Notes under the pieces: model-generated | The model's input: only the letters and a program-made list of their open reading frames with translations | What the model was told of the DNA's origin: nothing | Databases searched by the model: none | Source: Candidatus Palauibacter scopulicola | GTDB taxonomy: Bacteria; Gemmatimonadota; Gemmatimonadetes; Palauibacterales; Palauibacteraceae | NCBI RefSeq assembly: GCF_947581915.1 | Contig: NZ_CANPWG010000021.1 | Location: 124,001 to 188,000 of the forward strand | Direction of reading: 5' to 3' | DNA: 64,000 nt | Made by a program: the position numbers and the translations under genes | In this document: one piece after another, positions 8,154 through 15,818 of the stretch | Layout of the letters: each line of letters opens with the position of its first letter | How positions within the stretch are numbered: position 1 is the first letter of the stretch

Positions 8154-9110
8154 ATGAGCACAGAAAACGTTGTCATCATCGGCTCGGGCCCCGCCGCGTG
8201 GACGGCGGCCATCTATGCGGCCCGGGCGAACCTGAATCCGCTCGTGTTCGAAGGTGCGGGGAGCCGCACCATGATCCCGGGTGGGCAGCTTATGTTCACA
8301 ACTGATGTGGAGAACTATCCCGGCTTCCCCGAAGGGGTTAGCGGCATCGACATGATGTTGGACTTCAAGAAGCAGGCGCTGCGTTTCGACACGCGCGTGT
8401 TCACCGAGGACATCGTCGAGGTCGACTTCTCCAATCGACCCTTCCTGCTCCGTTCGTCAGGGGGTCAGGAGGTGCGCGCGGAGACCGTGATCGTGGCCAC
8501 GGGGGCCAACGCGCGCTGGCTCGGCGTGCCGGGCGAGGAGCGGCTCGCGCAGAGTGGGGGTGGCGTGTCCGCGTGCGCCGTGTGCGACGGCGCCCTGCCC
8601 GTCTTCCGGGACCAGGTCCTCGCCGTCGTGGGAGGGGGCGACAGCGCGATGGAGGAGGCGCTCTACCTCACGAAGTTCGCGAGCGAGGTGCTGCTCATCC
8701 ACCGGCGCGACGAACTGCGGGCGTCGCAGATCATGCAGGAGCGGGCCCTCGCCAGCGACAAGATCCGCTTTCTCTGGAACCGGACTGTGGAGGAGGTGTT
8801 CGGGGACGACGCGATCACCGGCCTCCGCCTGCGCGACACGGTGACGGGCGAGGCGTCGGAGGTCGAGGTGGGCGGGATGTTCGTGGCCATCGGCCACATC
8901 CCCAACACGGCGTTCCTGCAGGGCCAGGTCGACCTCAAGGAGAACGGCTACGTCGACATGCCCACGCCGTGGCGCACGGACACGAACGTGCCCGGAGTGT
9001 TCGCGGCGGGCGACGTCATGGACGACTACTACCGGCAGGCCGTCTCCGCGGCGGGCACCGGCTGCATGGCCGCCCTCGACGCCGAACGCTTCCTCGCCCA
9101 CAACGGGTAG
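8154..9110 (+). CDS. trxB: Thioredoxin reductase (NADPH-dependent flavoprotein)
   Basis: 318 residues, the usual length for the low-Mr bacterial enzyme. It has the FAD-binding [10 protein letters not shown] at the N-terminus, the redox-active pair Cys141-Ala-Val-Cys144 in SACAVCDGA (most family members have CATC), the NADPH-binding [10 protein letters not shown] and the C-terminal FAD motif GVFAAGDV. It reduces thioredoxin with NADPH in the cytoplasm. The start ATG lies 9 bases after the small gene upstream; the nearest Shine-Dalgarno-like GGAG (8148-8151) is unusually close to it, so translational coupling is likely. It faces a convergent toxin-antitoxin pair 15 bases downstream. Confidence 0.95.
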
Positions 9111-12407: not shown

Positions 12408-12821
12408 TCAGCGCTCCGAATGCCCGAACGGGTTGACGGTCTTCACGCCGAGTCGCTCGAAATCGCGGACGTTGCGGGTCGCCACGGTCAGTCGGTTCAC
12501 CGTGGCGACGGCGCCGATCATTCCATCCTGGAGCAGCGTGTCCGATTGCCCGTGCATGATCCGCGCCCATTCACGGAAGGCGGTCGCATCCACCGGGAGC
12601 ACTTCGTACGTCTCGAGGACCTTGTCGAGCCACGCTTCCAGTTCCGCGGCCCTGGCCGAATCCTGCTCGCGGGTGATCTCGATTCCGGCCTGAATCTCAC
12701 CGACCGTGACCGCCGAGAGACGCAATTCGGCGGCGGGAACGTCGCGAAACCATGCCAGCACCCCGCCGTGCGGCCTCGGGCGCCGCAACTCCGAAACGAC
12801 GTTGGTATCGAGCAGGAACAC
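12408..12821 (-). CDS. vapC: PIN-domain toxin (VapC/FitB-like)
   Basis: 137 residues with the PIN acids Asp5 (FLLDTNVVSEL), Glu42 (VGEIQAG), Asp99 (LLQDGMIGAVA) and Asp120 in ATRNVRDFERLG. It is a predicted Mg2+-dependent ribonuclease toxin. It lies 4 bases downstream of a Phd/YefM-type antitoxin gene. It differs in sequence from the PIN toxin at 9126-9548, which pairs with an RHH antitoxin, so these are two independent modules and not a duplication. Confidence 0.9.
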   Translation of the reverse strand: MFLLDTNVVSELRRPRPHGGVLAWFRDVPAAELRLSAVTVGEIQAGIEITREQDSARAAELEAWLDKVLETYEVLPVDATAFREWARIMHGQSDTLLQDGMIGAVATVNRLTVATRNVRDFERLGVKTVNPFGHSER

Positions 12822-12825
12822 GCGG

Positions 12826-13086
12826 CTAGTCGAATCGGGGCGTCGCCCGCTGCCGCACTTCGCGGCGCGGCGGAACGAGATGGTCCGTCCGGGCCTCGGG
12901 CGCGAGCAGCAGTTCTTTCAGGCTCGGCTTGGCCATCTTCTCCAACCGTCTCCAGTGGTCGATGGGCACCAGGACCGCGGCTTCGACGCCGCGTTTCGTG
13001 ACAACTTGCGGCCCCTGCGTCAACGCCGTCTCAAGAAGCGCGCTGAAACGCGCCTTCGCTTCCTGAACCTGCCACGCGTTGCTCAT
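12826..13086 (-). CDS. Phd/YefM-family antitoxin
   Basis: 86 residues. The N-terminal half has the Phd/YefM fold signature (WQVQEAKARFSALLETAL, then VVTKRGVEAAVLVPIDHW), which dimerises and binds operator DNA. The C-terminal tail should wrap the PIN toxin encoded next. A strong GGAGG (13095-13099) precedes the ATG at 13086, and a short inverted repeat lies at 13108-13125 upstream. Pairing of Phd-type antitoxins with PIN toxins is common. Confidence 0.9.
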   Translation of the reverse strand: MSNAWQVQEAKARFSALLETALTQGPQVVTKRGVEAAVLVPIDHWRRLEKMAKPSLKELLLAPEARTDHLVPPRREVRQRATPRFD

Positions 13087-13164: not shown

Positions 13165-13392
13165 TCAGGAATCGACGTGGAGAACCCGCGAGAGGGTTTG
13201 CCTCGCTTCTTCGTGCCGGCTGGCGGGCACGCGGAGGACCTTCGCGGCCGCCGTCGGGCCCCAGGACACGGGTGCGAACTCCCCTTCGACCCTGAAGGGG
13301 ATGTCGTCCGCCTCGAGGGCGAGCCGCGCCGCGAGGAATTCGCTCTCATCCCACGCCTCGAACACGCGGACCATGTCCTCGCTCCGTGTCAC
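13165..13392 (-). CDS. DUF2007-type small protein
   Basis: 75 residues from GTG 13392, preceded by GAGGG. The pattern VRVFEAWDESEFLAARLALEA followed by DIPFRVEGEF resembles DUF2007 (putative signal-transducing, GlnB-like fold) proteins, which are usually 70-90 residues long. It starts 10 bases after the stop of the OsmC-family gene and is therefore probably cotranscribed with it. Biochemical role unknown. Confidence 0.72.
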   Translation of the reverse strand: MTRSEDMVRVFEAWDESEFLAARLALEADDIPFRVEGEFAPVSWGPTAAAKVLRVPASRHEEARQTLSRVLHVDS

Positions 13393-13402
13393 GTCGCCCT
13401 CA

Positions 13403-13873
13403 TCATGATGAAGCAGGGATCTCCTCGATGTCGGCAGTCCAGCTCACCTTGATCGCGCCCTCCAGCGAACGGGCGGTGGGGCACTTCGCGCCGTGGCCGG
13501 CAAGGGCGCGGTCGACGGTCTCCCGGGCCTCGGCGGGGATGCGGAGCCGGTAGTGGACGACGATCTCCTCGAGCAGCGGCATGCGGTCGCGGAGGTGCAG
13601 GATGCCCTCCGCTTCGGCGGTGATGTCCTCGGGGGCCAGGCGGATGCCGCGCACTTCCAGTGCGCCGTTGAGCGTGCCCAGCATTCAGCCCCCGGTCGCG
13701 GCCACCTGGTAGTCGACGGGGAGCGGCAGGTCCTTCGCGTCGATCCGGTAGTGGGACTTGATGGGACCGTGGACGCCGAAGTCGATCTCGGTCCCCTCTT
13801 CGAGGCGGGCCCGCCGGTGCACGCCCTCGACCTTCTCGAGACGCGCGCGGGCAGTGTAGAACGGCTGGGACAC
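13403..13873 (-). CDS. OsmC-family peroxidase with in-frame TGA at the catalytic cysteine (candidate selenoprotein)
   Basis: Read with TGA at 13687-13685 as an amino acid, this is one 156-residue OsmC-like protein. GTG at 13873 follows AAGGAG. Residues 1-62 end in YQVAATGG, residue 63 is the TGA, and residues 64-156 begin MLGTLNGALEVRG. In OsmC/Ohr proteins this position (helix after AAxGG) is the reactive peroxidatic cysteine. The second cysteine is present as Cys131 in GAKCPTARSL. Both halves are full and in the same frame with no length change, so the TGA is most simply selenocysteine. Bacterial OsmC-like selenoproteins have been reported from metagenomes (from memory). A hairpin fitting a bacterial SECIS follows (13649-13665). 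Alternatives are a nonsense mutation, or two polypeptides with restart at the ATG touching the TGA. The family reduces organic hydroperoxides. Confidence 0.75.
13649..13687 (-). promoter_or_regulatory. Candidate bacterial SECIS element after the in-frame TGA
   Basis: On the minus-strand transcript the UGA (13687-13685) is followed by 19 bases, then GCGCAC (13665-13660), loop UGGAA (13659-13655) and GUGCGC (13654-13649). The six base pairs are all Watson-Crick. The loop starts 25 bases after the UGA and has G at its second position, within the published range and rule for bacterial SECIS elements as I recall them. In GC-rich DNA such a hairpin can occur by chance, so it supports but does not prove selenocysteine insertion. 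Confidence 0.5.
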
Positions 13874-14000
13874 GACGCTCTCCTTGTGCTTTCGGTTCCC
13901 CCTCGTGGGCGCTCCTTTACGCACCCGCCCTCCCTGCCGCATCTTCGGGCGGCGAGATTCGGGGCGTGACGCGCAAACGGAACGATCAAGAGCAACCAGC

Positions 14001-15818
14001 ATGACGTCAACCCGCGACGGGAGCCGACTTGCGGCCGGAGCGACGGGCCGGATCGTGGCCGTGATCCTCATGGCGGGCGGGATCGCGGCCTGCGAGCGGG
14101 GCTCGGCCGAAACGGGGGCCCCCGCTCCACTCAGCGACCTGTCGGTGCTCAGCGACCGCTTCTGGGATGCCTACCTCTCCTGGAACCCGCTGCAGGCGAC
14201 CTACCTGGGGGAGCACCGCCTCAGCGACCGCGTTCGCGACATCTCGCCGGCGGGGCGCAGCAATCGCCGGCGCGAGGTTGGTGCCCTCATGGATGCGCTC
14301 GCGGCCATCGACCTCGCGTCGCTGCGGCCCGGGAACCGGCTCACCTATCTTGCACTCGACCATCAGCTCTCGACGGAGGTCGCCGAGCAGACGTGCGATC
14401 TCGAGGTGTGGGTGGTGGACCACCGGGAGGGGTTCCAGCTCGACTTCCTCAACATCGTGGGCGCCCAGCCGCTGGAGACGCCGGTCGACGGCGAGCGCAT
14501 GATCCGGCGCTGGAACGCGTTCGCGGACTATATCGACGACTACATCTCGAACCTCCGCACGGGCCTCGAGACGGGCCGGGTCGCGGCGCGCGCGTCGGTG
14601 AACCGGACGATCGTGCAGCTCGACGCGCTCCTCGAACGACCGGTCGAGGAATGGCCGATCTACGCTCCGGCGGGGACGCGGCTCGATGCCTGGCCCGAGG
14701 GGACGCGCCACGACTTCCGGGCCGGCATCCGGGAGGCCGCCTCGGAGCGCATCCAGCCCGCCTACGCGAGACTCCGCGATTTTCTGCGCGACGAACTCTA
14801 TCCGCACTCGCGCACGGGAGCGGCGGTCGGACTCTCCAGCCTGCCGGGCGGCAGCGCCTGCTACGAGGCGATGATCCGCACCTTTACGACGCTCGACCTG
14901 ACACCGGCCGAGATCCACGCCCAGGGTCTGGCGGAGCTGGAGAGCGTCCACGACGAACTGCGGACGCTTGGAGAGGAAGTCCTCGGCACGTCCGACCTGA
15001 AGGAGATCCAGCAGCGGCTGCGGTCGGACCCGGAGATGTTCTTCCGCTGGCCGGGGGAGATCGTGCAGATGGCCGAGGAGGCCTACGCGCGGGCGGCCCT
15101 CGTTATGCCCGACTGGTTCGGCACGACGCCGCGGACGGAGATGGTGATCCGTCCGATCCCGCTGTACGAGGCGCCGCAGAGCCAGCTCGCCTACTACCGG
15201 GAACCGGCGCCGGACGGATCGCGGCCCGGCACGTACTACGTGAACACCTACCGGCCCGAGATCCGTCCGCGGTACCAGGCCGATGTCCTCAGCTTCCACG
15301 AGGCGATTCCGGGGCACCACCTCCAGACGGCCATCGCCCAGGAGATCGAGGGTCTGCCCGAGTTCCGGAAGCACCTCGGCTCGGTCGCCTTTGTCGAGGG
15401 GTGGGCGCTGTACGCGGAGCACCTGGCCGACGAAATGGGCCTCTACGTGGACGGCCTGAGCCGCATCGGCCTCGCCTCCTACGATGCGTGGCGGGCCAGC
15501 CGGCTCGTCGTCGACACCGGCATCCATGCCTTCGGCTGGACCCGCGAGGAGGCGGTCGACTTCGTCCGCGAGAACACGCTGCTCGCCGAGGTGAACATCG
15601 AGAACGAGGTGGACCGCTACATCACATCGCCCGCCCAGGCGCTCACCTACAAGCTGGGGCAGCTCGAGATCTCGCGGCTGCGCTCGAAAGCGGAGGCGAG
15701 GCTCGGGGAGACGTTCTCCATCGCGGAGTTCCACGACCGGGTCCTGGAGAACGGCGCGCTGAGCCTTCCCGCGCTCAGCGACGCGATCGACAGCTGGCTC
15801 GCGGAGGCCGCCGGCTGA
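14001..15818 (+). CDS. DUF885 family lipoprotein (putative zinc peptidase)
   Basis: 605 residues. The ATG at 14001 is chosen because a lipoprotein signal follows directly (VAVILMAGGIAAC). DUF885 proteins are about 550-620 residues and largely helical. This one has the conserved zinc-peptidase-like site HEAIPGHHLQ (His433-Glu434, His439-His440) and the downstream FVEGWALYAEHLADEMG. NTYRPEIRPRYQ and SPAQALTYKLG are also family marks. It is probably a secreted, lipid-anchored metallopeptidase acting on peptides outside the cytoplasm. Substrate unknown. It is divergent from the OsmC-like gene. Confidence 0.88.
   Translation: MTSTRDGSRLAAGATGRIVAVILMAGGIAACERGSAETGAPAPLSDLSVLSDRFWDAYLSWNPLQATYLGEHRLSDRVRDISPAGRSNRRREVGALMDALAAIDLASLRPGNRLTYLALDHQLSTEVAEQTCDLEVWVVDHREGFQLDFLNIVGAQPLETPVDGERMIRRWNAFADYIDDYISNLRTGLETGRVAARASVNRTIVQLDALLERPVEEWPIYAPAGTRLDAWPEGTRHDFRAGIREAASERIQPAYARLRDFLRDELYPHSRTGAAVGLSSLPGGSACYEAMIRTFTTLDLTPAEIHAQGLAELESVHDELRTLGEEVLGTSDLKEIQQRLRSDPEMFFRWPGEIVQMAEEAYARAALVMPDWFGTTPRTEMVIRPIPLYEAPQSQLAYYREPAPDGSRPGTYYVNTYRPEIRPRYQADVLSFHEAIPGHHLQTAIAQEIEGLPEFRKHLGSVAFVEGWALYAEHLADEMGLYVDGLSRIGLASYDAWRASRLVVDTGIHAFGWTREEAVDFVRENTLLAEVNIENEVDRYITSPAQALTYKLGQLEISRLRSKAEARLGETFSIAEFHDRVLENGALSLPALSDAIDSWLAEAAG

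Follow-up and report, generated by a model that had tools for sequence, protein, structure and literature searches.

A predicted OsmC-type selenoprotein of Candidatus Palauibacter scopulicola, with an in-frame TGA conserved among Gemmatimonadota

In Candidatus Palauibacter scopulicola, a reading frame for an OsmC-type protein is interrupted by a TGA codon and then continues for 93 more codons until its stop, which raises the question of whether this codon ends translation or is decoded as selenocysteine (Sec). The frame lies on the reverse strand of a 64,000-nucleotide stretch (contig NZ_CANPWG010000021.1, positions 124,001 to 188,000), referred to here as the window. The premature-looking stop codon is almost certainly read as selenocysteine, and the locus taken as a whole is very probably a gene for an OsmC-fold selenoprotein in which UGA 63 would be decoded as Sec. 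The gene starts with GTG at 13873-13871, is closed by a TGA stop at 13405-13403 and has a single internal TGA, in the context ...VAATGG-[TGA 13687-13685]-MLGTLNGALEVRG..., or VAATGG-U-MLGTL at the protein level. Its parts are as follows.

13403..13873, reverse strand: predicted OsmC-type selenoprotein gene, 156 codons plus stop, GTG start, Sec at codon 63
13685..13687, reverse strand: in-frame TGA at residue 63, the catalytic position, presumably read as selenocysteine
13880..13885, reverse strand: AAGGAG ribosome-binding site, 6 nt ahead of the GTG start, as read from the sequence
13478..13483, reverse strand: Cys131-Pro132, invariant in the family alignment and pairing with the GCP motif of 1UKK; putative resolving cysteine

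These coordinates, the VAATGG/MLGTL context, the retained Cys131 and the AAGGAG-GTG start had all been given correctly in an initial annotation of this DNA, which also placed it, rightly, in Gemmatimonadota. It further predicted that automatic annotation would falsely split the gene in two, and indeed a mechanical ORF caller returns separate frames at 13685-14071 and 13403-13684. With the TGA taken as Cys, the read-through product matches the Pfam family OsmC (PF02566) with an E-value of 2.8e-11, and the same model is matched by all 26 of the 26 family members tested. When the whole window was scanned for TGA codons that combine coding-like flanks with a SECIS-like hairpin, no other case on a plausible gene was found; the remaining TGA-interrupted frames either had no suitable hairpin or were apparent antisense shadow frames of other genes.

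Elsewhere in the host genome (3.6 Mb in 79 contigs, 96% complete), all four components that the initial annotation proposed to look for are present: tRNA-Sec with the anticodon TCA (79.7 bits), SelB (370 bits, covering model positions 1-579 of 581), SelA (485 bits) and SelD (366 bits; G000:C30:54584-55510, L018). The Sec decoding system of the host is complete. The SelD gene carries one in-frame TGA (SHGAG-U-ACKLG) with a GGA-loop hairpin behind it as well, and host SelD is predicted to be itself a selenoprotein. In the phylum at large, SelA was detected in 282 of 395 genomes (about 71%), and the use of selenocysteine seems common in Gemmatimonadota.

Judged from one genome, a TGA inside an ORF is the usual sign of a nonsense mutation, whether in a decaying pseudogene or through a sequencing error. 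For a pseudogene, the initial annotation had expected relatives to be interrupted at unrelated positions; they are instead interrupted at the identical codon, and independent assemblies agree. In a set of 60 relatives, TGA occupies this codon in all full-length homologues. The relatives that span the site share it at about 54-97% protein identity and, in a second, paralogous clade, at 33-44%. Among the matches listed and the weaker genomes that were rechecked, across 395 Gemmatimonadota genomes, no Cys form at the Sec site was found and all copies spanning the site have TGA; matches without TGA are either distant Cys-type Ohr/OsmC proteins or fragments at contig edges that do not reach the site. 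A weak OsmC match in one genome (G122) also contains an in-frame TGA and was set aside, as this TGA lies off the catalytic site, which is Cys there. Most differences between close relatives, before and after the TGA alike, are at third codon positions, so that the two halves are constrained at the protein level within a single frame. The TGA recurs in relatives from about 115 genomes, is flanked on either side by sequence under purifying selection and has a covarying hairpin behind it; a nonsense mutation is already refuted by this conservation, and its probability is negligible.

The family is present in 115 of the 395 genomes, and the initial suggestion that such proteins are rare is not borne out in Gemmatimonadota. 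SelA was found in 108 of the 115 carriers and in 174 of the 280 non-carriers (Fisher p = 9e-12; the genomes are related, so that the p value overstates the association, while its direction is clear). As for the seven carriers in which SelA was not detected, five are assemblies in at least 290 contigs, and completeness is 89% and 73% in the remaining two. No relatives were found in viral contigs and plasmids, and an exact-peptide scan of genome contigs gave matches in Gemmatimonadota only, with the exception of L052 (VXNP01000066.1), which is labelled Gammaproteobacteria. This contig is collinear with the window, at 91-94% over about 8 kb, and therefore its label or bin is wrong; it was not accepted as a carrier from another phylum.

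The bacterial SECIS (bSECIS) model describes a stem of 4-16 bp with a loop of 3-9 nt, reading N1-G-G/U-N-N2 with G in the first two loop positions, located 16-37 nt from the UGA and with an energy of ≤ -7.5 kcal/mol (PMC13188914). The corresponding element of the window is the following.

13649..13665, reverse strand: bacterial SECIS hairpin GCGCAC-UGGAA-GUGCGC with a GGA apical triloop, 25 nt after the UGA

Its arms are formed by 13665-13660 and 13654-13649 around the loop UGGAA (13659-13655), with a stem of 6-7 bp and an energy of -11.3 kcal/mol. The hairpin lies within all the bounds of the model, including the N1-G-G-N-N2 loop (PMC13188914), and its stem covaries, in agreement with its initial designation as a bacterial SECIS. 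Covariation was measured over 73 unique segments. Of these, 31 have an A-U pair and 37 a G-C pair at offsets 26-34; at offsets 25-35, C-G occurs in 63 and U-A in 5. The stem covaries through silent changes between codon pairs (GCA..GTG, GCG..GCG and GTG..GCA), and its state switches at least 7 times on the tree. All 31 segments with GTG as the partner codon use the Ala codon GCA, against none of the 32 with GCG in that place; elsewhere in these genes, GCA makes up 5% of Ala codons. Furthermore, recoding the peptide with synonymous codons gives less stable structures (mean z of the hairpin -1.7, with p<0.05 in 59% of the segments). The hairpin is not explained by protein constraint alone. In five sequences of the paralogous clade (L064, L065, L066, L067 and L069) the standard stem is broken. 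The first impression of SECIS loss was overturned by the finding that all five share GGGC-GGA-GCCC 8 nt upstream; the hairpin has moved upstream by this distance, with its GGA loop kept.

Readthrough of UGA can be non-specific, and the codon might accordingly specify a residue other than Sec, by genome-wide reassignment (to Trp, as in code 4) or by near-cognate suppression; alternatively, the two halves might be translated separately, since an ATG directly after the TGA starts the downstream half in 32 of the 73 segments. This ATG is, however, not conserved (CTN stands there in 41 of the 73), so that the downstream half has no conserved usual start. The host uses TGA as a gene terminator, in the Sec-OsmC gene itself among others, and it possesses the dedicated tRNA-Sec together with SelA, SelB and SelD. 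The position is also Cys in relatives: OsmC homologues such as that of T. thermophilus (1UKK) have their catalytic Cys where the TGA aligns, a check that had been proposed from the start. In addition, the SECIS hairpin is explained by the Sec model only. Another residue at UGA 63, or separate translation of the halves, is hence very improbable, and the reading as a Sec-containing OsmC-family protein, made in the initial annotation, is supported by the decoding machinery, the aligned TGA, the conserved codon and the covarying hairpin.

The family consists of two clades, A, which includes the window protein, and the paralogous B, whose members are 33-44% identical to it. The host carries one of each, clade A in the window (C21) and clade B on another contig (C38). 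The clade-B gene (G000:C38:27924-28382, L062) encodes a protein 33% identical to the window protein and has TGA at the same codon with its own GGA-loop hairpin. A third host OsmC (G000:C3:36604) has Cys at the site and no in-frame TGA. In a maximum-likelihood tree, clades A and B form one group of 74 Sec sequences adjoining Cys Ohr/OsmC proteins (support 98/96). A further Sec-OsmC group, with the motif GA-U-TSMTIALYARR (L151-L161), was observed in 11 Gemmatimonadota genomes, where it is accompanied by a SECIS-like hairpin with the loop UGUAU/C. Both this group and the window family have Sec at the catalytic site, but the former is a separate clade (branch support 100/99), lies nearer to the NCBIfam model NF041052 (63 bits, below the cut-off of 95) and has a Cys relative (L148). 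In one genome (G304), a gene of this group (C47:1003-1380) precedes a clade-B Sec-OsmC gene by about 100 nt, so that two selenoprotein genes stand in tandem.

With respect to structure, the AlphaFold model of the window protein has a pLDDT of 96 and a pTM of 0.88, and its top fold matches in the PDB (Foldseek) are OsmC/Ohr structures, with E-values down to 3e-9 at 12-22% identity. Sec63 and Cys131-Pro132 are invariant in the family and align with both redox cysteines of 1UKK, the OsmC of T. thermophilus. The catalytic Cys of Ohr acts together with Arg19 and Glu51, and the disulfide formed is reduced by lipoylated proteins (PMC5962072). At position -10 relative to the Cys, where the Ohr of X. 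fastidiosa has its catalytic Glu51, the window family has Val or Leu, and an invariant Asp is found at -9. The catalytic Arg (Arg19 in the enzyme of X. fastidiosa) was not located; Arg20, invariant in the family alignment, is a candidate for it.

The most likely function of the product, which we favour with some reserve, is that of a selenium-based hydroperoxide reductase with Cys131 as the resolving residue, and the product is probably an antioxidant enzyme. For Sec insertion as for the enzymatic activity, its substrate and its electron donor, we infer the following course. tRNA-Sec, charged through SelA with selenophosphate from SelD, would decode UGA 63, and SelB would be recruited by the GGA-loop hairpin 25 nt downstream. 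In the folded protein, the selenolate on the central helix would attack a hydroperoxide, probably an organic or lipid one. The resulting selenenic acid would condense with Cys131 to a selenenyl-sulfide, and this may be reduced by a dithiol donor such as a dihydrolipoyl protein or thioredoxin.

A Sec-containing OsmC-fold protein need not be a peroxidase; it might be a reductase of disulfides or other small molecules, for example, or a lipid-binding redox sensor. Some OsmC-fold proteins have, to our knowledge, no known peroxidase activity. The replacement of the Ohr catalytic Glu, the distance of the family from the curated Ohr/OsmC models and a gene neighbourhood that gives no functional hint all point in this direction. 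Nevertheless, neither the catalytic position nor the Cys-Pro motif of Ohr/OsmC varies within the family, and the two-Cys OsmC-fold proteins of known activity are, as far as we know, hydroperoxide reductases. We therefore regard a non-peroxidase function as the less likely one, though it deserves some weight. The label "peroxidase" in the initial annotation agrees with the match to Ohr/OsmC at the catalytic and second Cys positions, whereas the Ohr Glu at -10 is not conserved; hydroperoxide reduction is a plausible activity for the protein.

The gene is flanked on its two sides by the following features.

13165..13392, reverse strand: 75-aa ORF, beginning 10 nt downstream of the Sec-OsmC gene on the same strand, no Pfam match
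13884..15818, forward strand: divergent gene for a DUF885 protein (PF05960, E 2e-155)

The 75-aa ORF, which is possibly co-transcribed with the Sec-OsmC gene, stands beside it in close relatives only, and the DUF885 gene adjoins it in the genus of the host and in part of the family (down to about 45% identity). A gene pair for a Phd/YefM-type antitoxin and a PIN-domain toxin (window 12408-13086, reverse strand) also lies beside the Sec-OsmC gene, in some close relatives only. A thioredoxin-disulfide reductase gene (window 8154-9110, forward strand; TIGR01292 over its cut-off) was observed 4.3 kb from the Sec-OsmC gene, a proximity that does not in itself speak for a link between the two. Members of the Palauibacter group occur in marine samples, sponges and corals, among other sources (PMC10469786).

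Cys versions exist for most selenoprotein families. That a branch should keep Sec throughout a whole class suggests a chemistry for which selenium is better suited. It is conceivable, and we advance this only tentatively, that the two paralogous clades constitute a Sec-only OsmC branch across the class with a changed active-site acidic residue, the chemistry of which may require selenium. Many Gemmatimonadota seem able to use selenocysteine, and automatic annotation stopping at TGA would split such genes. For the study of SelB recognition, the hairpin is a good natural data set, given its silent-codon covariation and one 8-nt relocation in which the GGA loop was kept.

OsmC-like selenoproteins have been known since 2005, when three sequences were reported from the Sargasso Sea (PMC1088965); five were found in the GOS survey (PMC2398784). 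Their motif is UxxT, and the UxxT or COG1765 OsmC-like selenoprotein is listed in reviews (PMC9312934, PMC13188914). The initial statement that such proteins are known from metagenomic surveys is thus borne out (PMC1088965, PMC2398784). No description of them in Gemmatimonadota was found in the literature searched by titles and abstracts, and the deep-Sep paper does not mention OsmC. The Sargasso/GOS proteins share with the window family the membership in the OsmC family, Sec at the catalytic Cys position and a downstream bacterial SECIS, but the motif of the window family is U-x-x-G-T instead of UxxT. The relation of the two to each other is drawn from motif and profile score. The NCBIfam model OsmC_like_Se (NF041052), to which we assume the survey sequences belong, has a cut-off of 95 bits, against which the window protein scores 18 bits and its clade-B paralogue 13.5 bits; none of 298 Gemmatimonadota genomes passes this cut-off. 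With the Ohr/OsmC thiol peroxidases (TIGR03562; PDB 1UKK, 1NYE and 1N2F) the window protein shares the fold, the catalytic position and, within a C-P motif, the second Cys, but it has Sec for Cys, no Glu at -10 and 12-22% identity, and scores 16 bits with TIGR03562 (cut-off 85.8). E. coli YhfA-type OsmC (1ML8) and the Cys OsmC of the host (C3) have the OsmC fold in common with it, but carry Cys at the site and form a separate family. Since OsmC selenoproteins were already known and the window protein scores 18 bits against the 95 of NF041052, it is of a known kind, and its family is a distinct variant that no curated model covers in the libraries searched.
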